From an uncultured Phycisphaerae bacterium (GTDB lineage Bacteria > Planctomycetota > Phycisphaerae > UBA1845 > Fen-1342), in NCBI GenBank assembly GCA_937928595.1, contig CALGJV010000011.1, positions 124,001 to 188,000 of the forward strand: 64,000 nucleotides of DNA, written 5' to 3'. This document shows positions 39,558 to 50,944 of this stretch, piece by piece. The notes below the pieces were generated by a model. The model was not told the DNA's origin. It saw only the letters and a program-made list of their open reading frames with translations, and made no database searches. How positions within the stretch are numbered: the stretch's first letter is position 1; each line of letters begins with the position of its first letter. The position numbers were made by a program, and so were the translations under genes.

Positions 39558-39635
39558 GTCGCAGCACCGCCTGCCTGGGTTTCGCCCGCGGCGGGGCCGG
39601 TTGCTGGAGCGTGTAAGAACTTAGGTAGGTTAGTC

Positions 39636-39680
39636 CGACCGGGCCGGCGGGTATGGCACCGCCGGCCCGGTCGTCTTTTC
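39636..39680 (+). terminator. intrinsic terminator after the dockerin-bearing secreted gene
   Basis: A 15-bp perfect stem (39636-39650 with 39659-39673), eight-base loop, then TCTTTTCC. It lies 79 bases after the stop of the secreted protein at 37302-39557. Confidence 0.85.
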
Positions 39681-39738
39681 CGCACGGACGTGTTACGCTG
39701 CGCGCGGAAGGTGCCGCCGGCGGACGCGCGCCGCTCGA

Positions 39739-40164
39739 GTTACGCTCCTGCCAGCCGTCGTTGCGCTGTCGGTCCTCGCGGCGAACGATCCGCCGCCCCG
39801 CGTCGTGCGTCGGGAGCCGGCGGACGGCTCGACGGAGGTCGCCTCCCACACGCGCTTCATCCGGGGCGAGTTCGACCCGGACCTGGCCGAGGGCAGCCAC
39901 TCCTGGGTCGGCGGCGGGGACGGTTTTCCGCGCATCCGCGGCTGTGCCTACTGGGAGGGGCCGCGGGTCGCCGTCCCGCCGGTCGCGTTGCCGCCGGAGC
40001 GCGCGTACCGGCTCAGCCTCAACAGCGACCGTTTTCGCAGTTTTGCCAGCCGCGCGGGCGTGCCGCCGGCGCCGGTGACGCTGACCTTCCGCGCCGGACC
40101 GGCGGTCCCGCACGACGCGGCCACGGGCGTTGTCCGCACCGCCCGTCGCCCCAGTACCCCCGCG
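39739..40164 (+). pseudogene. remnant of an exported Ig-like (Big_5/SbsA-type) domain protein
   Basis: In one frame the sequence reads VTLLPAVVALSVLAAND (a signal peptide style) and then PPPRVVRREPADGSTEVASH, GEFDPDLAEGSHSWVGGG, PPERAYRLSLNSDRFRSF and APVTLTFRAGPA. This is close to the SbsA-Ig-like (Big_5) module common in planctomycete exported proteins. No ATG, GTG or TTG start lies upstream in frame, and the frame runs on without stop into unrelated, Arg/Pro-rich sequence that overlaps the opposite gene. A truncated or decayed gene is therefore likely; a short functional protein with an unusual start is possible. Confidence 0.45.
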
Positions 40165-40268
40165 CCGGCGGCGCACGGAGACCGCCTGCGGCGTCGTCGT
40201 CCGGAACGCCCTGTTCCGCGCATTCTACCGCGCCGCGCGCTCCCCATACGGGGACCGAGCCAAATAAG

Positions 40269-40303
40269 CGGCCGGCCGGCAGCGCACGGCTGCCGGCCGG
40301 CCG
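40269..40303 (-). terminator. long GC-rich hairpin between convergent genes
   Basis: A 14-bp perfect stem (40269-40282 with 40290-40303), seven-base loop. On the minus strand it is followed by CTTATTTGG, fitting termination of the 40367-43753 gene 64 bases past its stop. Confidence 0.7.
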
Positions 40304-40366
40304 GATGCGGAGCCGGTGGCCCCGCCGGCGGCCGTTGGGTCGCCGGCGGAACCTACCGGTCAAGAA

Positions 40367-43300
40367 CTAGTTGCAGTCCGCGCCGATGCGGGCGACGAAC
40401 GGATCGATGTCGTCGAAGTTGACGTTGCCATCGCCGTTGCAGTCGCCATTCAGCCAGGGGCACGGATACGGCCAGCCGCTGCCGCCCGGATAGCCGAGCG
40501 CCTCGACGAACAGGCCGATGTCGTCGAAGTCGACCGAGCCGTTGCAATCCATATCACCGGGGCAGAGGACGGGACCGGTGCCGACGAGCCGCAGGCGGGT
40601 CCAGCGGCGCTGATAGCCGGCGCCGAACTCCATGTAGTAGATGTCGCCGTTGGGCGCGATGGACAAACCATCGGGCTCGCCCCAGTCGTTGACGAAGTGA
40701 TCGGCGTTCGTGACGTACTCGGCCAGCACGTCGTTGATCGGAGGCGACCAGCCGGAACTGGTCGGCGGCGTGGCCTGGTACCAGAGCTCGACGCGGTCGA
40801 TCACGCGCGTCGGGTCGAACACCGAGGCGCCCTGACCGTTGTTGGTTCCGGCGATGGTCAGGTTCTGCTGCGCGACGCCGAGCACGAGATTGTACTCGTA
40901 GGTGAGCTCTCCGGCCTGCCAGGTGTTGACGGCCAGATTGGCGGTCGGCGACCAGTCGGGATCCGCGCCGGTCGCATACGCCTTCTGATTGGCCGGATTG
41001 CCCGCGCCGTCCCACTGGAACACGCCGAGAGCGCCCGCGCCGCCTGCGGCGGGCGCGGTCACGACGCCGCCGTTGTCCGTCAGGTCAACCCGCTTCTGCT
41101 GCCACTGGACCTGGATGACGTCGCCGTCATTCGGCGCCGGCAGCGAGAGGTTCGCCTGGAGGCCGACGTACTGGAAGCTGTTCCCGCCGAATGGGTTGAG
41201 CACGAGGACCTTGTTCGAGCCCTCGAGCACGATCTGTGGCGCCGGCGCGCCGGCGTCACTGGTGCTCGTCCACTTGGGGTTCGGCAACGACAGGGGGCCG
41301 ACCGGGTACGACTGGAAGTCGTCCTCGAAGACGGGCACGCCGTTGAGCAACACCTTGACGTTGTCGAAGTAAATCGGGCCGTCATCGATCTCGGCTTCGC
41401 CCGGAACGCCCGGCAGGGCCTGGGTCAGGTTCAGGGCGACGATGCGCGCGAACTGGCGGGTCGAGCCGTCCGGTGCCGGCGGATCCTGCCACGGGACCCA
41501 CCAGCGGCCGTCCTTGAACGCGGTGATCATGATGTCGTCGCCCGCGGCATTCCGCACCAGCAGGGCGTTGGTGCCGGTGAAGCCGTAGGCCGCCCACTTG
41601 CCGCCGCCCCGCAGGAGCTTGCTGCCGTCATCGGTGTAGGTGTAGACCCAGCCGTCGCTGCCGCCGGAGTGGACCTTGTTGCCCGAGAAGCTCAGCGCCA
41701 CGGCCTCGTCGTCGTAGCGCGTCTGAGCCGTCGCGTCGGCCTGGACCTGCGTCGCGGCCGGCACGCCGGTGACGGGGTTGATCCGCCACTGGGGGATGTT
41801 ACCCCAGGCGTCGGACTGCGCCCGCACGTACAGCTGACCGGTGGTCGGGCTGTACGTTACGGCGCTCAAATCTGCGAGGATGCCGTCGACGCCCCAGCTC
41901 GAGACGACGCCGCTGTCGTTGACCGTGACGCCCACGGCATCCGCCAGACCGTCGGTGTCCGAGTCGCTGCGGCCGGCGAAGCACAGGATCACCTCGTTGG
42001 TCGGGCCGCCGGTCGGAATCACGACCATGTTGCCGAAGCGGGGCTCGATGCTGCCCCACGGGACGAGGCGACCCCACAGCAGCGTCGGGACGACCGGGCC
42101 GGGGACGTCCGAGCCGACGTTGACGCAGTAGATCGCGACCGTGTCTTTCTTGCCATCGCCGGACTGATCGAACGGCTGGCCGAGGACGTAGATGCGGTTG
42201 TTGTGCAGCGCGGCGATGGTGCGCCAATTGCCGCTGGTCGGGATCGCTTCCTGGACTCCGCTGACGGGATCCCGGAGCTCCTGACGCCAGACGACCTGGC
42301 CGTTGACCTTGTTGAACGCCCACACGCTCGGCAGCGCGGCCGGGTTGGTCGAGCCGTCGTTGTTCCGCTCGCCGGTGCCGACCGTGTACACATAGCGGTC
42401 GCCCACCAGCACCGCGGTGCTGTTGATGCCGTAGCCGCCGATTTCCACCGATTCCCAGCGGAGATTGAAGTTCGGATCGACCGAGCACAGTTTCCGGTAC
42501 CACTGCACGCGGTAGCTGTTGCTGAGGTCGTCGAACACCAGTTGGCGGTCCGGGCTGCTGTCGCCCGAGAACCCGAACGGTCCGCCCTGTACCTGGGTGA
42601 TCAGCTGGAACTGGAGGTCGCCATTCGGCAGCACCAGCGGATGCTGAGCCGTGCCGAAGTTGTCGCCGTTCTTGGTCGCGAACGGACCGGCCAGATCGTC
42701 GATTGGGATCGGCGTCGGCGGCAGCGTCGTAATGTTCACGGTGTCCGTGCTCTGCAAGCCGTCGTTGTCAATCACGGCCAGGCGCAGCGTCGTGGTCGCG
42801 TTCGCTGCGACCGGCACGTCCTGCGGTGCGCTGGCGGTGGCGCCTTGCACCTTCACGGCCGGGGGGCTGCCGTCAACGGTCCAGCGGTAGAAGACGAGCG
42901 AGCCGTTGGGGTCGGTGCTGGCGGTGCCGTCCAGGTCGACAAGAGCGCCGTCGTAGGTGCTCGGCGCGTTGTTCTGGTCGGGACCGGCGTTCGCGATCGG
43001 CATGCCTGTCGGATTGGCGACCGTGATCTTGAGGTTGTCGATCCGAGTGATGTAGGTCGGGTTGCGGCCCAGCGCGCGAATCTGGATCGTGTCGATGTCA
43101 TTGGCCGGCGCGATGCCCCAGCAGTCGAGCGCATAGATCTTGCTGCCGTTGACCTCGATGTACATGAGCTGGCCGTACGTCGCGCCCGTACCCGTACCGT
43201 AGTAGTACACGTACTTGATGTGGTTCCACTGCGTCGGGTTGGGAATCAGGTTCGGCGCGCCCGCCCAGGCTCCGGCGAACGCCGCCGGCGTCCCCGACGG

Positions 43301-43753
43301 GTGCCAGGAGCCGTACCACGTGAAGCCGGTGCCGCCGACCACGTCGCTGTGCGCGCCGCACACGCCCGCCAGACCGGTGGGGCTGTCCATCAAGCGGACC
43401 CGGAAGTCGATGCCGGCGCTGCTTCCGAAGTTGACGAACTTGAAGTCGTACTCGAAGGTGATGATCTTGTCGCCGGAGCCCACCGGCACCAGGTTTGCGA
43501 TCGGCTTGAACAGACGCCACTGTCCGCCGGTGGGACCGACCACCTCGACGCATTGCGAGCCCGCGATCGACGGGCCGTTGTCGCCCGTGATCACGGTGAA
43601 CGAGCCATCTGAGGTCGAGTTCTGGTCCCAGCTATCCTGCCCGACGAGTGCCGCCGCCGTATAGGTCGGCGACTCGAACGTAACGGTCTGTGCTGCGGCC
43701 GCGCCGACACAGGCGAGCACACCGACCAGACCTAGCCACCTCAAACGATGCAT
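40367..43753 (-). CDS. very large secreted protein with PKD-like domain and dockerin-like cassette
   Basis: 1,128 residues. Signal peptide (WLGLVGVLACVGAAAAQ), a lectin-like N-terminal region (about 20-245, FEYDFKFVNFGSSAGIDFRV), a PKD-like Ig fold (NAGPDQNNAPSTYDGALVDL, DNDGLQSTDTVNITTLP, about 255-345), then a region with propeller-like repeats and a second lectin-like segment, and finally the paired Ca-loops CPGDMDCNGSVDFDDIGLFV and GDCNGDGNVNFDDIDPFVARI. Start fixed by AAAGGAGGTCGTG before the ATG at 43753. A strong promoter sits about 440 bases upstream. Function unknown; the modules suggest binding at the cell surface. Confidence 0.8.
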   Translation of the reverse strand: MHRLRWLGLVGVLACVGAAAAQTVTFESPTYTAAALVGQDSWDQNSTSDGSFTVITGDNGPSIAGSQCVEVVGPTGGQWRLFKPIANLVPVGSGDKIITFEYDFKFVNFGSSAGIDFRVRLMDSPTGLAGVCGAHSDVVGGTGFTWYGSWHPSGTPAAFAGAWAGAPNLIPNPTQWNHIKYVYYYGTGTGATYGQLMYIEVNGSKIYALDCWGIAPANDIDTIQIRALGRNPTYITRIDNLKITVANPTGMPIANAGPDQNNAPSTYDGALVDLDGTASTDPNGSLVFYRWTVDGSPPAVKVQGATASAPQDVPVAANATTTLRLAVIDNDGLQSTDTVNITTLPPTPIPIDDLAGPFATKNGDNFGTAQHPLVLPNGDLQFQLITQVQGGPFGFSGDSSPDRQLVFDDLSNSYRVQWYRKLCSVDPNFNLRWESVEIGGYGINSTAVLVGDRYVYTVGTGERNNDGSTNPAALPSVWAFNKVNGQVVWRQELRDPVSGVQEAIPTSGNWRTIAALHNNRIYVLGQPFDQSGDGKKDTVAIYCVNVGSDVPGPVVPTLLWGRLVPWGSIEPRFGNMVVIPTGGPTNEVILCFAGRSDSDTDGLADAVGVTVNDSGVVSSWGVDGILADLSAVTYSPTTGQLYVRAQSDAWGNIPQWRINPVTGVPAATQVQADATAQTRYDDEAVALSFSGNKVHSGGSDGWVYTYTDDGSKLLRGGGKWAAYGFTGTNALLVRNAAGDDIMITAFKDGRWWVPWQDPPAPDGSTRQFARIVALNLTQALPGVPGEAEIDDGPIYFDNVKVLLNGVPVFEDDFQSYPVGPLSLPNPKWTSTSDAGAPAPQIVLEGSNKVLVLNPFGGNSFQYVGLQANLSLPAPNDGDVIQVQWQQKRVDLTDNGGVVTAPAAGGAGALGVFQWDGAGNPANQKAYATGADPDWSPTANLAVNTWQAGELTYEYNLVLGVAQQNLTIAGTNNGQGASVFDPTRVIDRVELWYQATPPTSSGWSPPINDVLAEYVTNADHFVNDWGEPDGLSIAPNGDIYYMEFGAGYQRRWTRLRLVGTGPVLCPGDMDCNGSVDFDDIGLFVEALGYPGGSGWPYPCPWLNGDCNGDGNVNFDDIDPFVARIGADCN
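40431..40477 (-). repeat. 47-bp arm of an inverted repeat (dockerin cassette), right copy
   Basis: Inverted identical partner of 39447-39493, inside the last codons of the opposite-strand secreted gene. The two copies are about 940 bases apart. Confidence 0.85.
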
Positions 43754-44397
43754 CACGACCTCCTTTGCGGTTACCCCCACGTTCCTCAGTGAATTCCACG
43801 CGCCACGCGGCGTTCGATCAGTGGAAATGAAACGGCTCGGTAGCTCTGCTCGGGAAACTTGACGCGGTCCTGACACTGCGCGCATCTCCGCACCGCTGCG
43901 GGTCGTCCCGGATGCGCTGGCGCGACAATCCGGGCACCCATCCTCCCGTGTGGTTCATTTCGACCGAACCGCCCGCCGCCTGTAGCTCGTGCGCCTCACG
44001 GGCGCACGCGCGGAAGGCCGCCAACAGGTCCGATCAACCCGCCGACGCGGGTTCTTCAAAACAGCGCACGACTTCGCTTCCCGACTTCCTCGCCCGCCGC
44101 ACTCTGGGCGGCCACCAAATGACAGTGTGCCGGAAATGTCATCCGCGTCGTCCCCAGTCGCGCGGTAGCTAAATCGGACTCACGCAGCACAACAGAAGTG
44201 TATCCGATTTTTTGGGGCATTGCAACCGTTTCATCCGATTGCGGACCACGCTCTGCCCGAATCCCCGCAAGGGAAGGCTGGCGCCGCGCGATAACGCCGG
44301 GCGGCCCGGCGGGCCTGGGTCCCGAAGTTATCGGCATCAGATGCGAGGTGCAGTTAGCGGATGTTTCGCGTCCAGCGTGCCGTGCCGACCCGAGACT
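43754..44397. other. long leader and promoter region of the large secreted gene
   Basis: About 640 bases without a gene. The 43,988-44,008 region forms an 8-bp hairpin (CGTGCGCC-TCACG-GGCGCACG), and 44,036-44,053 a 7-bp hairpin (AACCCGC/GCGGGTT). A minus-strand promoter (44,197-44,225) implies a leader of about 435 bases. Three copies of ATCCGATT or its complement surround the promoter. I see no known RNA family. Confidence 0.5.
44172..44240 (-). promoter_or_regulatory. promoter TTGCAA-N17-TACACT with triplicated ATCCGATT element
   Basis: On the minus strand TTGCAA (44225-44220) and TACACT (44202-44197) are 17 bases apart. ATCCGATT (plus-strand text) occurs at 44233-44240 and 44202-44209, 31 bases apart, and inverted as AATCGGA at 44172-44178, just past the expected start point. 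One copy lies above the -35, one on the -10 edge and one downstream, as expected for a regulator's operator set. Confidence 0.6.
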
Positions 44398-44757
44398 TCA
44401 GTTCGTCACTCTCACCCAACGCGCGTCCCAGACCATGAGCCACCCGTCCAGCGTCTCACCTTGCCCATCGCTGTATTGCACCCACTGGCCGGCGTCCGTG
44501 AACTCGTAGAGCGCGGGACGCGTGTACCAGCTCGGCGACGCGCTGTCGAACTCGTACCACGCGCCGTCATCGCCCCGGAACTGCGGCATCCGGTAGTACG
44601 CAATCTTTGCGCCGTCGCACTCGACCCAGTACAGGTCGCCCGACACTGCCGGCAGCGCGACGGTCGTTGCGGACGGCAGGCAGCCCGGGAAAACCAGCAA
44701 CCCCGCGATCAGCGCCAGGATCGAATTCAGTTTCAGCGGCAGAACGCGAGACCTCAT
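44398..44757 (-). CDS. small lipoprotein
   Basis: 119 residues. Lipoprotein signal (LNSILALIAGLLVFPGC, Cys near 26), then a compact Trp/Tyr-rich domain (DLYWVECDGAKIAYYRM, FRGDDGAWYEFD, GWLMVWDARWVRV). The aromatic content suggests a small surface-binding or beta domain. No family recognised. The ATG at 44757 follows GGAGG by eight bases; frame is open further upstream without a signal. Divergent from the MscS-type gene. Confidence 0.68.
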   Translation of the reverse strand: MRSRVLPLKLNSILALIAGLLVFPGCLPSATTVALPAVSGDLYWVECDGAKIAYYRMPQFRGDDGAWYEFDSASPSWYTRPALYEFTDAGQWVQYSDGQGETLDGWLMVWDARWVRVTN

Positions 44758-45103
44758 CGCAGGCCCTCCGGGGGGCAGATTCGGCGAAGCGCTGATTCTA
44801 TGCCCGCGCCGCCACCCGCTTCCCCGGTCGCCCGGAGGGCCGCCTCGCGAACTGTGCTTCACGCCGTGGAGGGCCCCGGGCGGCGGCCGCCAGTTCATCT
44901 TACCGGGACCTTCGAAGTCCGGCGAATACCTCCGGGAAGGGAACCCGCGTGTGTCCGGGAAGAGCGGGCTTCGGTCGCGCCTGCGTTGAGGGTTGCGCGT
45001 TCGCAGGCTAGATTACGCGGTCCGCCTCACGGTGCCGTTGCGCGGCCGCGGTGCGACCCGGCGAGCAACGACCCCGGGCGGCGGGCCGTGCGGGAAGCAG
45101 GGC
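44758..45103. other. divergent intergenic region, lipoprotein/MscS
   Basis: About 345 bases holding the start signals of both genes. I see no clear promoter, RNA or further gene. Confidence 0.4.
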
Positions 45104-47860
45104 GTGCGCGTGTGGATCCAGTTGTGCGTGTCGGCTGTCGTGGCGGGGCTGCTGCTCACGGGCGGGGCGACCGCGATCGACCCGGAAGCGACCCTGCCCA
45201 CGTCGGCGTGGACCACCGCGGCGGACACGCAACCCACCAGCATGCCGGACTCGGTGCCGACCACCGGGCCGACCGCGCTGCCTGAGACGCAGCCCGGCGC
45301 GGCGTTGGCCACCGGGCCGGCTTCACAACCTGCGGATGCCTCCGCGCCGCAGCGGACGCCGGCCCGCATGATGGCCTTCTTCCTGACCGTGACGCGCGAT
45401 GTGGACGAGCAGCCGGAGCGCCTCACGGCCGCTATGGGTTGCCTCGATTTTTCGCTGCTCGACCCGGAGGTCGCGGCCGCGCAGGGGCCGGAATACACGC
45501 GGCGGGCGGGTGAGATTGTGCATGCGCTCGTGCGGATGGGCGCATTCGAGCCGAACACCCTGCCCGACGAGCCGGCGGCCGGCACACGCGTCATCGGCCG
45601 TGAGCCGCTGCTGCTGATCATCGATCGCCGCGAGGACCGGCAGTGGCGGTTCTCGCCTTCGACGGTGGCGGAGATTCCGGATCTCTACCGCCGCTTGCAG
45701 GAGTTGCTGGAAACGCCGTCGCCGGCGTCGGCGCCGACTACCGACACGACTCCGCCTCCCGAGCCGCTCACCGCGAAGCTCCGCTCGCCGCGGGCGCTCG
45801 TGCGGCAGTTCCTGGTCGCGGTGAATGACGCGGAGCGCAACCCGGACTTCTACCCGGCGGCGCTGGCCTGCCTGAACTTCGCCGGGGTGGATGCGGCTGT
45901 CGCGGCCGAGCAGGGCGCGCGCTACGCGGACCAGTTGCAGGACGTGCTCCAGCGGCTGCTGGACCTGGGTCTGTTGAAGCTGGAGGACCTGCCGGAGGAG
46001 ACGACGCAGACCGCGTACACGATCGGGCGCGAACCGGTCGTGCTGGTTCTCGCGCGGCAGGAGGGGGGCCACTGGCTGTTCTCGGCCCGCACCGTCGCGC
46101 AGATTCCGGCGCTGTATCAGCAACTCGGCGAGCTCAGCACTGCCGCCGCTTCCCCGACGGCGGAAGAGCCGGTCCGTGCGGCGAAGGGCACCGCGGGAGC
46201 GGATGTGCCGGCCGAGTACCGGTCGCCGCGCGCGACGATGGTGACGTTCCTCAAGTCGATGACTGCGGATGACCTGCGGACCGCCATTCGCTGCCTGGAC
46301 CTGAGTGGCCTGAGCGAAGTCGAGCGGGAGGCCAGCGCGCGGCTGCTGGCGGGGAAGCTGCTGCTGGTGATGAACCGCCACAAGGTGGTCGTACCGCAGG
46401 AGATTTCCGACGACCCGGCGTTCGAGGGGCCGTACAAGCACCTCATCGACCGGTACGGGCGGATCGAGATCGCGCGGCAGGTCGGCGGGGACCGGGCCGG
46501 CGAGTGGCTGTTCAGCGCCGCCACCGTGAAATCGATCGAACGGCTGTACGACGCGTGGGAAAGCCGGCCGCTCCTGCCGGAGTTCCAGGCCGACCCGGGC
46601 GTGTCCCTGCGGACGGTGCCGTCGTTGTGGCTGCGGGAGCGCGTGATTCCGCCGGAGCTGAAGCGTACGGGTCTGTGGCTGCAGCACTGGCAGTGGATCG
46701 GGCTCGGGCTGGCGTTGCTGCTCGGATGGGTCGCGCAGCACCTGGCGCGAGCGCTGGTGCCGCGGCTCGCGCGGCGTCTGCTGCATGTTCCGGGGGCGAC
46801 GCGCGATTTCGGGGCGAACCTGCCGGCGCTGCGGCCGCTGGCGTTGCTGGCGCTGGTCGGCACGTGGTGGGCGGGCTTGCAGTTCGTCGATCTGGGCGCC
46901 CGAGTCGTGGGGCTGGTGTGGCCGGCGATCCGGTTCGTGCTGGTCGCGGCGGTGGCCTGGACACTGTACACGCTGATCGACGTGGTGGCCGGCTACGTGA
47001 CGGAGCGCGCGGCACAGCGCGGGCTGCGGTTGGACGACGTGCTGGTGTCGCTGGCGCGCAAGACGATGAAGGTGACGGTGGTCGCGATCGGCGTGCTGCT
47101 GATGCTGGCGACGCTGGGGTTTCAGGTGGAGCCGCTCCTGGCGGGGCTGGGCATCGGCGGCCTGGCGTTCTCGTTCGCGGCGAAGGACACGTTGTCGAAC
47201 TTCTTCGGCTCGGTCAACGTCGTGCTGGACCGCACGTTCCAGGTCGGCGACTGGGTGAAGATTGGGGCCAACGAGGGTCTGGTGGAGAGCGTCGGACTGC
47301 GGAGCTCGCGGCTGCGGACGTTCTACAACTCGGAACTGACGATTCCGAACGCCGAGATCATGAACGCGGTCATCGACAACCTCGGCCGGCGCCGCTATCG
47401 CCGCACGCTCCTGACGTTGTCGGTGACGTACCAGACGACGCCGGGGCAGCTCGAGGCGCTGTGCGAAGGGGTCCGCGAGCTGATCCGCCGCCACCCCTTC
47501 ACCCGCAAGGACCTCTTCCACGTCTCCGTGCGGGCCTTCGCCGCCTCGTCAATCGACGTGGTGGTCGACTGCTTCCACGACGTCTCGGAATACGCGGTCG
47601 AGCTGCGCGAGCGGCACCGGCTGCTGCTGGACATTCTGCGGCTCGCGGCCCGTCTCGGGATCGAGTTCGCGTACCCCACGCAGACGGTGTTCGTCCGCAA
47701 GACGCCGGCGGGCGAGGCGGACGGGGCGCCTCCCGCCGCGGCGGCCGCGTCGACGGTGCGGGCGCCCGCCGCGCCGGTGCCCGCGGATACGCCGGCGGCG
47801 CAGGCCGCGGGGCGCGAAGCCGCCATCGCGGTCCTCGCCGCGCAGGAGCGAACCGGCTGA
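45104..47860 (+). CDS. MscS-type mechanosensitive channel with triplicated N-terminal module
   Basis: 918 residues. After a signal-like segment (VSAVVAGLLLTGGATA) and a disordered Thr/Pro linker come three similar segments of about 110 residues (about 84-200, 227-345, 371-487). Each has CLDF/CLNF/CLDL early, a GREPLLL-type or similar strand in the first two, and a W-L/R-F-S-x-x-T-V-A/K-x-I-x-x-L-Y signature at its end. Four or five membrane helices follow (about 519-685), then GLGIGGLAFSFAAKDTLSNF (about 680) and the beta/alpha-beta domain of MscS. The channel should release solutes under membrane tension; the repeats presumably sit in the periplasm. The GTG at 45104 is a best guess. Confidence 0.83.
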   Translation: MRVWIQLCVSAVVAGLLLTGGATAIDPEATLPTSAWTTAADTQPTSMPDSVPTTGPTALPETQPGAALATGPASQPADASAPQRTPARMMAFFLTVTRDVDEQPERLTAAMGCLDFSLLDPEVAAAQGPEYTRRAGEIVHALVRMGAFEPNTLPDEPAAGTRVIGREPLLLIIDRREDRQWRFSPSTVAEIPDLYRRLQELLETPSPASAPTTDTTPPPEPLTAKLRSPRALVRQFLVAVNDAERNPDFYPAALACLNFAGVDAAVAAEQGARYADQLQDVLQRLLDLGLLKLEDLPEETTQTAYTIGREPVVLVLARQEGGHWLFSARTVAQIPALYQQLGELSTAAASPTAEEPVRAAKGTAGADVPAEYRSPRATMVTFLKSMTADDLRTAIRCLDLSGLSEVEREASARLLAGKLLLVMNRHKVVVPQEISDDPAFEGPYKHLIDRYGRIEIARQVGGDRAGEWLFSAATVKSIERLYDAWESRPLLPEFQADPGVSLRTVPSLWLRERVIPPELKRTGLWLQHWQWIGLGLALLLGWVAQHLARALVPRLARRLLHVPGATRDFGANLPALRPLALLALVGTWWAGLQFVDLGARVVGLVWPAIRFVLVAAVAWTLYTLIDVVAGYVTERAAQRGLRLDDVLVSLARKTMKVTVVAIGVLLMLATLGFQVEPLLAGLGIGGLAFSFAAKDTLSNFFGSVNVVLDRTFQVGDWVKIGANEGLVESVGLRSSRLRTFYNSELTIPNAEIMNAVIDNLGRRRYRRTLLTLSVTYQTTPGQLEALCEGVRELIRRHPFTRKDLFHVSVRAFAASSIDVVVDCFHDVSEYAVELRERHRLLLDILRLAARLGIEFAYPTQTVFVRKTPAGEADGAPPAAAAASTVRAPAAPVPADTPAAQAAGREAAIAVLAAQERTG

Positions 47861-47872
47861 GGCCGCAACGCC

Positions 47873-48535
47873 TCAGGCCAGGGCCAGCACGCGCTCCACC
47901 AGCTTGCGGATGCCCTCGTAGACCTCGGCCGGACCGCGGCCGAGCATGTACGCCGGCGTCGAGACGATCCGCAGTTCCTCGTCGACCGCGATCTCGGTGA
48001 CGGCGTGGTTCTCGTGCGTGCAACCCATGCCGTTGATGGCCCGGGCCGTGCCCGCGTCGGTGCCGATGGTCAGCCGGGCCTTCTGCCCGCGGTTGGCGAT
48101 GATGCGCGCCAGCATCGCGGGCGCGATGCAGATTGCGCCGATCGGCTTGCGAGCGTGCAGACATTCGCCGACGAGGCGCTCGACGTCCGGCTGCACGCGG
48201 CAGGCGGCGCCTTTCGTCGCGAAGTCGCTCAGGTTCTTCGCGGCGCCGAACCCACCGGGCAGGATCAGGGCGTCGAGCTCGTCGACCCGCACGGTCGCGA
48301 GGTCGCGGATCTCGCCGCGGGCGATGCGGGCCGCCTCGGTCAGCACGTTGCGCGTTTCGCGCACCGGCTCGCGCGTCGTGTGGTCGATCACCTGCGCTTG
48401 GGGGATGTTCGGCGCACAGCAGAAGTACCGGGCGCCCTGCTGGTCGAGCGCCAGCAGCGTCAGCACCGCTTCGTGAATCTCGGCGCCGTCGAAGACGCCA
48501 CAACCGGAAAGCACGACCGCAACTCGCTGGGACAT
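47873..48535 (-). CDS. elbB: ElbB-family glyoxalase-like protein (DJ-1/PfpI superfamily)
   Basis: 220 residues. Almost full-length match to ElbB: VAVVLSGCGVFDGAEIHEAVL at the N terminus, ALILPGGFGAAKNLSDFA near 95, GAICIAPAMLARII near 138 with the nucleophile cysteine and GCTHENHAVTEIAVDEELRIVSTPAYM near 173. ElbB proteins are named for isoprenoid biosynthesis in E. coli and may act as glyoxalases. The ATG at 48535 has GGAGGTGACC before it. It converges on the MscS gene, 12 bases apart, and diverges from mqnA. Confident for family, less for reaction. Confidence 0.92.
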   Translation of the reverse strand: MSQRVAVVLSGCGVFDGAEIHEAVLTLLALDQQGARYFCCAPNIPQAQVIDHTTREPVRETRNVLTEAARIARGEIRDLATVRVDELDALILPGGFGAAKNLSDFATKGAACRVQPDVERLVGECLHARKPIGAICIAPAMLARIIANRGQKARLTIGTDAGTARAINGMGCTHENHAVTEIAVDEELRIVSTPAYMLGRGPAEVYEGIRKLVERVLALA

Positions 48536-48911
48536 GGTCACCTCCGCCGCGACGGACCGCGGTCGGCCCGCCGCCTCGTTTTCATTCGATCCGCTCGGGC
48601 ATCAGCCGCCCGCGCAAACGCGCGGCCCTGGCCCGCAGCGCCGGACCACCCGCCGGTTGCGTGCTCCCCGTCGCCGCTGCGACGCGCGAGGCGCCGCCGG
48701 GCCGGTGGCACGGACCCACGCGGCCTGACCGGTCGCGCTTGGCCCCGCGGGGCGGACGGCCCGAGCAACAGGCGTTTCAGGGTTTTTGAAACCCGCGCAG
48801 CCGGGAAGCGCCCGCGGCCGCCCGGTTCTGCGTCGGATTATACTCGCGGGAGTAGGCGACGGACCCTCCCGGCTCTGGGCAGGGCCGGTGCGCCCTGCAA
48901 CAGGATTCGTC
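48536..48911. other. divergent intergenic region elbB/mqnA
   Basis: About 375 bases. Contains a -10-like TATACT (48839-48844) about 68 bases before mqnA with no good -35. Otherwise GC-rich, no gene seen. Confidence 0.45.
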
Positions 48912-49739
48912 GTGATCCGTCTCGGCGTCGTCTCGTTCCTGAACGCGCGCCCGCTCATCGCGGGCCTCGAGGCCGACGACCGGGTCGCGTTGCGCTTCGA
49001 CGTGCCCGCCGCACTGCCGGCGCTGCTCGACCGCGGGGCGGTGGACCTCGCGCTCGTGCCCGTCATCGACGTGCTGCGCAGCCCTGGGCGGCTGGCGGTC
49101 GTGTCCGACGCCTGCATCGGCTGCGACGGCGAGACCCTCACCGTGCGCGTGTTCTCGCAGGTGCCGCCGGACCGCATCCGCGCGCTGCGCGTGGACGGGG
49201 ATTCGCACACGTCGGTCGCGCTGGCGCGGGTGCTGTGGCGCGCGCTGTACGGCGTCCGGCTCGACGTGGAGCCGTTCGACGCCCGCCAAACGCCGCCCGA
49301 GTCCCACCCGGCCGTGCTGCTCATCGGAGACAAGGTCGTCGATCCGCGCCGCGGGCGCTTCGCGTACGAAGTCGACCTGGGTGGGGCCTGGCGCCAGCAC
49401 ACGGGGTTACCGTTCGTGTTCGCCGTCTGGGCGCGGCGCACCGCGGCGGCGGGCCCCGAGCCGGACGCCGCGCGGGGCCTGCTCGAGGCGGCCCGGGACC
49501 GCGGCGTGGCGCAGGCCGCGGCGATTGCGCACGAGGTCGGGCCGCGGCTCGGCTGGCCCGGCGCGCTGGCCGAGCGCTACCTGACCCGCTGCCTGACCTT
49601 CCGGCTGGACTCCCGCGCCATCGCCGGCGCCGCCCGCTTCGCGCAAGCCTGCCGCGCGGAAGGTCTCGTACCCGAGGATCCGGCCGAGATTGCATGGCCG
49701 GCCGCCGCAGCCGCCATCACCGCCGGAGACGCGGCATGA
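48912..49739 (+). CDS. mqnA: chorismate dehydratase (menaquinone, futalosine pathway)
   Basis: 275 residues. MqnA removes water from chorismate to give 3-enolpyruvyl-benzoate, the first step of futalosine menaquinone synthesis. GVVSFLNARPLIAGL at the N terminus, VDLALVPVIDVLR near 50, DGDSHTSVALARVL near 94 and LLIGDKVVD near 135 are the periplasmic-binding-like signatures of the family. GTG at 48912 is preferred since a further upstream ATG would lie before a -10-like element. The stop overlaps mqnC (ATGA), so the two are one translational unit. Other pathway genes (mqnB, D, E) are not in the window. Confidence 0.93.
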   Translation: MIRLGVVSFLNARPLIAGLEADDRVALRFDVPAALPALLDRGAVDLALVPVIDVLRSPGRLAVVSDACIGCDGETLTVRVFSQVPPDRIRALRVDGDSHTSVALARVLWRALYGVRLDVEPFDARQTPPESHPAVLLIGDKVVDPRRGRFAYEVDLGGAWRQHTGLPFVFAVWARRTAAAGPEPDAARGLLEAARDRGVAQAAAIAHEVGPRLGWPGALAERYLTRCLTFRLDSRAIAGAARFAQACRAEGLVPEDPAEIAWPAAAAAITAGDAA

Positions 49740-50944
49740 GCGCGTCCTCGGCGAGCGTCGCGTCGCGGGCGCGCCTGACCGATGCCGAAGCGCTCGCGCT
49801 GTATCGCGATGCGTCGATTCACGAACTGGGCCGCCGCGCCTACGCTCGGACACTCGAGCTGCACCCGGAGCCGTACCGCACATACGTGGTGGACCGGAAC
49901 ATCAACTATGCGAACGTGTGCACGGCCCGGTGCATCTTCTGCAACTTCTACCGCAAGCCCGGAGACCGCGAGGCGTACGTCCTGAGCCACGAGGAGATCG
50001 GACGGAAGATCGAAGAGCTGCTCGCGATCGGCGGCACGCAGATCCTGATGCAGGGGGGCCTGGTCCCGGCGGCGGACCATCCCAGCGGGCAAGGGTTGCC
50101 CTTTGAGTGGTATCTGGACCTGCTGCGCTTCATCCGACGCAACTACCCGTCGATCCACATCCATGCGTTCAGCCCGCCGGAAATCTGGGCGTTTCACCGG
50201 GTCTACGGGATGCCGCTGCGCGATGTCCTGCTGCGGCTGCGGGACGCGGGGCTGGATACGATCCCCGGCGGCGGCGGCGAAATCCTCGTCGACCGTGTAC
50301 GCCGCAAGATCGGGCAGGGCAAGACACTCACCGACGAATGGCTCGAGGTCATGCGCCAAGCGCACCGGGCGGGAATGCAGACGAGCTGCACGATGATGTT
50401 CGGGCACATCGAGACCGTGCCGGAGCGGGTCGAGCACCTGCGGCGGCTGCGAGACCTCCAGGACGAGACCGGCGGCTTCATCGCCTTCATCCACTGGCCG
50501 TTTCAACCCGAAGGTACGCCCCTGGGGCGCTGGAAACGACCCCCGTCGGCGGGGGCCACGGCCGGGGATCGGGCGGCCGGCAAATCGGAGGACGCGCGGC
50601 GACCGGTGCCGGATGGCGAACACCTCTACCTGGCGGACGCCCACGAGTACCTCGTCATGCTGGCCATCGCCCGGCTGTATCTCGATAACATCGCCAACAT
50701 CCAGTCGAGCTGGGTGACGATGGGACCGAAGGTCGGGCAACTGGCCCTCTTCTTCGGCGCGAACGACATGGGCTCGGTCATGATGGAGGAGAACGTCGTG
50801 TCGGCCGCGGGCACGACGTTCCGCCTGAACGAAACCGAGATCCGCCGGCTCATCGCCGACGCCGGCTGGCAGCCGCAGCAGCGCGACCAGTTCTACCGGC
50901 CGATCGAGCGGCCGCGGACGGTGGTGCCCGCCGGGCGGGTGTAG
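49736..50944 (+). CDS. mqnC: cyclic dehypoxanthine futalosine synthase (radical SAM)
   Basis: 402 residues. The radical-SAM motif CTARCIFC lies near residue 61, preceded by RNINYANV. Others are GGTQILMQGGL near 98, IHIHAFSPPEI near 140, DTIPGGGGEILVDRVRRKI near 172, TSCTMMFGHIETVPERVEHL near 219 and NIQSSWVTMGPKVGQLALFFGANDMGS near 320. MqnC closes the spiro-like ring of dehypoxanthine futalosine. Compared with typical members an extra, disordered stretch (about 268-294, Ala/Gly/Arg-rich) sits between PLGRWKR and GEHLY. Overlaps mqnA. Confidence 0.93.
   Translation: MSASSASVASRARLTDAEALALYRDASIHELGRRAYARTLELHPEPYRTYVVDRNINYANVCTARCIFCNFYRKPGDREAYVLSHEEIGRKIEELLAIGGTQILMQGGLVPAADHPSGQGLPFEWYLDLLRFIRRNYPSIHIHAFSPPEIWAFHRVYGMPLRDVLLRLRDAGLDTIPGGGGEILVDRVRRKIGQGKTLTDEWLEVMRQAHRAGMQTSCTMMFGHIETVPERVEHLRRLRDLQDETGGFIAFIHWPFQPEGTPLGRWKRPPSAGATAGDRAAGKSEDARRPVPDGEHLYLADAHEYLVMLAIARLYLDNIANIQSSWVTMGPKVGQLALFFGANDMGSVMMEENVVSAAGTTFRLNETEIRRLIADAGWQPQQRDQFYRPIERPRTVVPAGRV

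Follow-up and report, generated by a model that had tools for sequence, protein, structure and literature searches.

An unnamed module ahead of the MscS channel core, in triplicate in an uncultured Phycisphaerae bacterium

MscK and MscM of Escherichia coli carry a big N-terminal part ahead of their MscS core, and in both this part is periplasmic. Booth 2014 (PMC4005912) describes the periplasmic domains of MscS relatives as unique to closely related species. YnaI, also a member of the MscS superfamily from E. coli, has an extended paddle and five long helices, the paddle plus the pore helix (PMC8137935). Here we describe a channel gene from an uncultured Phycisphaerae bacterium (GCA_937928595.1, contig CALGJV010000011.1, positions 124,001 to 188,000; this stretch of 64,000 nucleotides is referred to as the window) whose product joins an MscS core to three copies of an N-terminal module. 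That the product consists of three homologous modules, membrane helices and an MscS core is almost certain (Table 1). The open frame covers 44993-47860 on the forward strand (955 codons) and opens at TTG 44993, but GTG 45104 is the likelier true start because, by eye, a signal-peptide-like stretch comes after it.

Table 1. Features of the channel gene and of the divergent gene upstream of it (positions in the window).
Feature	Position	Strand	Basis or remark
Channel CDS	45104..47860	+	918 codons from GTG 45104; start picked by eye
Signal-peptide-like segment, VRVWIQLCVSAVVAGLLLTGGATA	45104..45175	+	By eye; hydropathy peak at residues 44-62
P/T/S/A-rich N-terminal stretch	45176..45355	+	
Module 1 (residues 122-238)	45356..45706	+	Alignment; AlphaFold2 pLDDT 95.3
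Linker 1-2, variable	45707..45784	+	Mean pairwise identity 0.19 (8 relatives)
Module 2 (residues 265-381)	45785..46135	+	Alignment only
Linker 2-3, variable	46136..46216	+	Mean pairwise identity 0.19 (8 relatives)
Module 3 (residues 409-525), membrane-proximal, standard form	46217..46567	+	Alignment, tree, model
Juxtamembrane segment, module 3 to first helix	46568..46684	+	
Five predicted long helices	46685..47230	+	Last three match MscS TM1-TM3
MscS beta domain and C-terminal domain	47231..47677	+	Pfam, model
Small lipoprotein-like gene	44398..44757	-	Divergent, upstream of channel; open frame from ATG 44898; lipobox by eye

The fusion to an MscS channel, proposed in the initial annotation, is borne out by Pfam: the C-terminal half matches PF00924 (63.9 bits, cut-off 20.2; E 1.4e-17), PF21088 (34.8 bits, cut-off 23.1; E 1.6e-8) and PF21082 (21.4 bits, cut-off 21; E 3.4e-4), and the channel core is an ordinary MscS. 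YnaI is its nearest solved relative by sequence (residues 647-903, E about 1e-34) and the first Foldseek match of the channel model (E 1.1e-18); five long helices are predicted in the model as well. The matched YnaI chains, however, have 324-419 residues and no room for modules, whereas here about 400 module residues precede the helices. MscK and MscM resemble the protein in overall layout, but their NCBIfam models match the channel core only, and identity with either was rejected on the equivalog scores (24.6 bits versus a cut-off of 991 for MscK, 10.2 versus 809 for MscM). In the model of unit 3 plus channel (pLDDT 88.5 and pTM 0.70 as a whole) the helices lie at model residues 164-195, 202-228, 235-275, 278-306 and 312-345; the count of five rests on this model, since hydropathy at the cut-off used marks fewer, with two helix regions picked out besides the signal segment. 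The TM1-TM2 loop carries 2-4 positive residues versus 0-1 in both loops taken as outer (8 of 8 proteins), which fits an N-terminus outside the membrane. The extracytoplasmic location suggested earlier for the modules is predicted, and the loop charges agree with it in all eight proteins. The channel gene is the sole PF00924 match in the genome (97.86% complete, 46 contigs), and a search of the same genome for MscL gave no match.

Three tandem units had been proposed for the N-terminal half, and they lie where they had been placed (ORF residues 122-525, 45356-46567), with the early motifs CLDF, CLNF and CLDL in units 1, 2 and 3 and the ends WRFSPSTVAEIPDLY, WLFSARTVAQIPALY and WLFSAATVKSIERLY, respectively; the unit measures about 117 residues, not the ~110 first given. 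Local alignment scores were 216 for units 1-2 (z 38), 86 for units 2-3 (z 13) and 64 for units 1-3 (z 8), and none of 2000 shuffles per unit pair attained the real score. Unit 1 is predicted with a mean pLDDT of 95.3 and a pTM of 0.88 and comprises helices 6-18, 26-31 and 41-64, strands 81-86, 89-95 and 101-103, and helices 105-109 and 111-123. The prediction for unit 3 has the same element order (helices 11-23, 27-32 and 41-62, strands 80-85, 88-94 and 104-106, helix 108-121), and with the alignment of unit 2 to unit 1 along its whole length this upholds a shared fold of the copies. The initial annotation had the third copy lacking a central GREP-type strand. This does not hold: GREP is the turn that joins the predicted strands TRVIGR and LLLIIDR of unit 1, and a matching hairpin (YKHLID and GRIEIAR) is predicted in unit 3, so that the two units differ at the hairpin turn only. 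Since the glycine of the GRIEI-type strand is kept in 75% of single-module rows, unit 3 represents the standard form, from which units 1 and 2 deviate.

Nor is the module specific to planctomycetes, as had been supposed; it occurs in many phyla, usually as a single copy. Matches were found in at least 56 of 392 sampled genomes of the window's phylum (E 0.001; at least 54 without false matches), in at least 16 of 299 of the phylum of the Methylophaga genome that holds L101 (at least 15 without false matches), in at least 31 of 199 of the phylum of Acidobacteria bacterium Mor1 (E 0.001) and in at least 31 of 198 of the phylum of the Bacteroidetes MAG that holds L073 (E 0.001). A contig search with alignment A2 matched at least 584 stretches, at least 533 of which encode a relative. 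In the best 80 of these relatives the module precedes the MscS core without exception (80/80, not a frequency, the query having included the module), with one copy in 76, two in 2 and three in 2. Record titles among the matches listed name Planctomycetota, Gammaproteobacteria, Acidobacteria, Bacteroidetes and Ignavibacteria, and further Eisenbacteria, Hydrogenedentota, Sumerlaeia, Rifleibacterium and UBP9; by these titles, module-bearing channels occur in at least eight phylum-level groups. In Gammaproteobacteria, Acidobacteria, Bacteroidetes and others, single-module MscS proteins thus carry the same module in the same place before the core, but in one copy (76 of the 80 loci) where the window channel has three. 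A two-module channel from the phylum of L101 (L196) has an extra stretch before its first module and a gap of 58 residues between the modules.

Module and core share one frame at 30/30 loci and 33/35 further stretches of the window's phylum, and at 53/55 loci and 23/23 further stretches of the three other phyla. The genes of the genomes on which these three samples were centred were read along with the best 80 loci. Pooled, 223 distinct frames contain the module (E 0.001) and 221 of them have the MscS core downstream; the other two are L208, a ParA-like protein removed as a false match, and L229, a truncated frame. One copy is present in 195 of the 221 channels, two in 17 and three in 9. Also removed were a small lipoprotein-like protein of the window's phylum (L159, E 8e-4; false), a frame of the same phylum with stops inside (L160; not genuine) and a match without a channel frame (G010/L011), and the match places in G572, G579 and G580 were left out of the frames read. 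The search for other architectures that had been suggested turned up no genuine module standing apart from an MscS core among all matches read. Because the profile was built from channel proteins, distant relatives of the module in other proteins could be missed. A contig scan for close relatives with the N-terminal half alone found none. Judged by these searches, the module is a common domain that lacks a name, and it extends beyond planctomycetes. It is a counter-example to the view expressed by Booth 2014 (PMC4005912), being a single recognisable domain, its fold predicted with confidence, in at least eight phylum-level groups, and it offers a handle on what the periplasmic parts of MscS channels do.

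The last module is followed by the first helix after 34.8 residues on average (sd 6.6; measured in those pooled proteins that show the motif, 174 of 214), and the linkers between modules span 4 to 58 residues and are mostly of low complexity (30 distinct linkers). In an alignment of 56 rows, 55 keep one juxtamembrane proline, and all 56 have a tryptophan where the first helix begins. Rigid coupling is nevertheless not established, because the juxtamembrane segment is less conserved than the module (mean top-residue frequency in the wide alignment 0.36 versus 0.45) and because the confidence of the unit 3 plus channel model falls to 73 at residues 131-140.

We favour, at a probability of roughly 0.4, a YnaI-like tension-gated channel in which the proximal module would load the sensor paddle and the two outer modules would contact the envelope. 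Tension gating is assumed here from MscS and YnaI (PMC8137935). In each subunit, an old periplasmic module close to the membrane would lead, through a short juxtamembrane segment, into the sensor paddle, with the two extra copies further out on variable linkers. Should the channel assemble as a heptamer, as MscS and YnaI do, its seven proximal modules would sit over the pore as a collar and load or damp the paddles. The 14 modules further out could act as tethers that touch an envelope component, be it peptidoglycan, a protein of the outer membrane or the lipoprotein encoded divergently; the opening tension would then depend on the state of the envelope. We consider the odds about even that the proximal module modulates tension gating. 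The assignment of the outer modules as envelope-binding tethers is more tentative, and it counts against this scheme that most relatives manage with one module and most sampled genomes without any. The widest version, in which the module is a new periplasmic domain family, possibly of new fold, that couples MscS channels to the envelope, and in which the tripled tether works with the lipoprotein and the sole MscS channel found reads envelope and tension together, seems improbable.

The history of the copies bears on whether the outer modules matter. Eight of the nine three-module channels are the window channel and its close relatives. An MscS search of 19 genomes of the window's family found seven with a three-module channel (G000, G089, G106, G200, G201, G202 and G1282), and the named Phycisphaerae MAG of L122 carries one as well. 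The other 12 family genomes, several of them incomplete, have other MscS genes (10) or none found (2); module searches were negative in 10 of these 12, G1283 and G1284 lying outside the searches. Many relatives of the window's family (in L249-L275) have long MscS frames of about 1100-1270 residues with no module in the stretch read, and the MscS proteins of L268, L272 and L273 have, by eye, coiled-coil-like N-terminal parts. Five genomes of another family in the order encode two-module channels.

A tree was built from 77 modules (126 columns; 22 of 74 forks open). For seven of the three-module channels, modules 1 and 2 cluster together (98/89); modules 3 make up a separate cluster (99/99), and this cluster branches with module 2 of the two-module channels (85/94, not starred). 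Module 2 of the window channel is not placed among the remaining module 2 rows, which group with one another. In L076 all three copies cluster together (99/91), and the L027 copies are found among single copies from other families (100/99). On this grouping, the old copy is the one next to the membrane, modules 1 and 2 form a later pair, itself the product of an old duplication, and copy number has increased more than once. Among the eight close relatives, mean pairwise identity is 0.40, 0.33 and 0.45 for modules 1, 2 and 3 and 0.19 for each linker; it is 0.42 for the juxtamembrane segment, 0.49 for the first two helices, 0.60 for TM1-TM3 and 0.76 for the beta and C-terminal domains. As the modules exceed the linkers in identity and the copies group by position, all three modules are being retained, and by these comparisons the three-module form is a stable variant within one planctomycete family.

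The same data bear on a purely structural role, in which the proximal module would aid folding or assembly of the subunit and the outer two would be surplus, without effect on gating. One copy is enough in 195 of the 221 distinct channels, copies have multiplied independently elsewhere (L076, L027) and module 2 is the least conserved of the three, all of which suits such a role. Surplus copies would, however, be expected to be lost in some relatives, and all eight close relatives found keep exactly three, grouped by position; we therefore regard an exclusively structural function as rather unlikely, although it is the strongest of the alternatives.

A second alternative turns on the fold of the module. 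The module was not recognised in the initial annotation, and Pfam and NCBIfam searches likewise gave no match in the N-terminal half. When 59 module rows were scanned singly, every Pfam family matched at most two rows and every NCBIfam family at most one, the best single Pfam match being a lone DnaA (E 5.3e-4). A PDB profile search with the module gave weak matches only, the best (E 0.006, profile positions 5-77) to the defence protein Ec4ApeA and the rest, including the plastid protein CDP1, at E of 0.2 or more. Foldseek with the unit 1 model returned no match at E 0.001 (best E 0.44). VIA-align re-ranks Foldseek candidates only, so families missing from the Foldseek list may still apply; its best match, weak and drawn from those candidates, was the NTF2-like 3k7c (Z 4.8, rmsd 3.8, 83 aligned). 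We take 25 of its 34 rows to be NTF2-like, cystatin-like or MlaC-type. Like the NTF2-like/cystatin-like superfamily, the module is predicted to have helices first and then a short sheet; it differs in Z values below 5, in the lack of a Foldseek match and in its three short strands followed by a helix. A distant NTF2-like origin is plausible from these models, and the fold is possibly new. The weak VIA-align matches include the CaMKII hub (7urw, Z 3.5), in which an NTF2-like domain assembles as a 14-mer; by analogy, a heptamer bearing a ring of modules is no more than conceivable. A literature search, mostly of papers available free of subscription, found no publication describing the module.

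Several NTF2-like, cystatin-like and MlaC-type proteins bind small molecules or lipids. The module might accordingly be a distant NTF2-like pocket for a periplasmic small molecule or lipid, by which the channel would be gated or tuned. The majority of VIA-align rows (25 of 34, on our own classification) point this way, but a best Z of only 4.8, the empty Foldseek result at E 0.001 and the core-type character of several best-kept positions (W, F, P, L, A) speak against it, and we think a ligand-operated channel unlikely. Least probable, and in our view very doubtful, is that the protein is not chiefly a tension valve and is instead a dedicated envelope or signalling protein on an MscS scaffold: the MscS superfamily does include members with other uses and much of the protein consists of the three extracytoplasmic modules, but the pore (0.60) and beta domain (0.76) are its most conserved parts, and with a sole MscS gene and no MscL found, the genome would be left without a valve of this kind if the role were lost.

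For the tension-gated channel with envelope contacts, the neighbouring lipoprotein-like gene provides a candidate partner, which could also be unrelated. Its likely start is 44757 rather than ATG 44898. The G-C of the putative lipobox, assigned by eye, is invariant in six of six aligned members; Pfam LPAM_1 was matched weakly in one of the six (E 0.2), and no Pfam family was matched by the gene itself. Of the seven other channels, five (L278, L279, L280, L281 and L283) have a relative of it in the corresponding divergent position (single-sequence E 7.5e-26 to 3.4e-5), so that channel and lipoprotein are linked in six of eight three-module loci, the window included; in L280 the lipoprotein domain is doubled. 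A relative is absent beside L122 and from the stretch upstream of the channel gene of G201. A search across the class detected the lipoprotein family in 6 of 198 genomes, each of them from the window's family: with the channel in G000, G089 and G106, and beside other genes and without a module match in G095, G101 and G118. Strict co-occurrence was thus not found, with three genomes having the lipoprotein only and two of eight channels lacking it. That the lipoprotein is the direct partner is improbable, and the three-module form with its linked lipoprotein makes a natural test case.

Window frames of more than 150 residues in 34000-60000 were compared with the loci of the seven relatives, whose flanks are short, at E 1e-8; matches were confined to the channel with its shadow frames, the lipoprotein and a single frame at 39634-40419 (in L280 only). 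By eye, the product of 47873-48541 (-) resembles an ElbB-type glyoxalase-like protein, the frames in 48786-50944 (+) look like MqnA and MqnC of the futalosine menaquinone pathway, and 40367-43885 (-) encodes a large secreted-looking protein with dockerin-like D-x-N-x-D repeats at its end.
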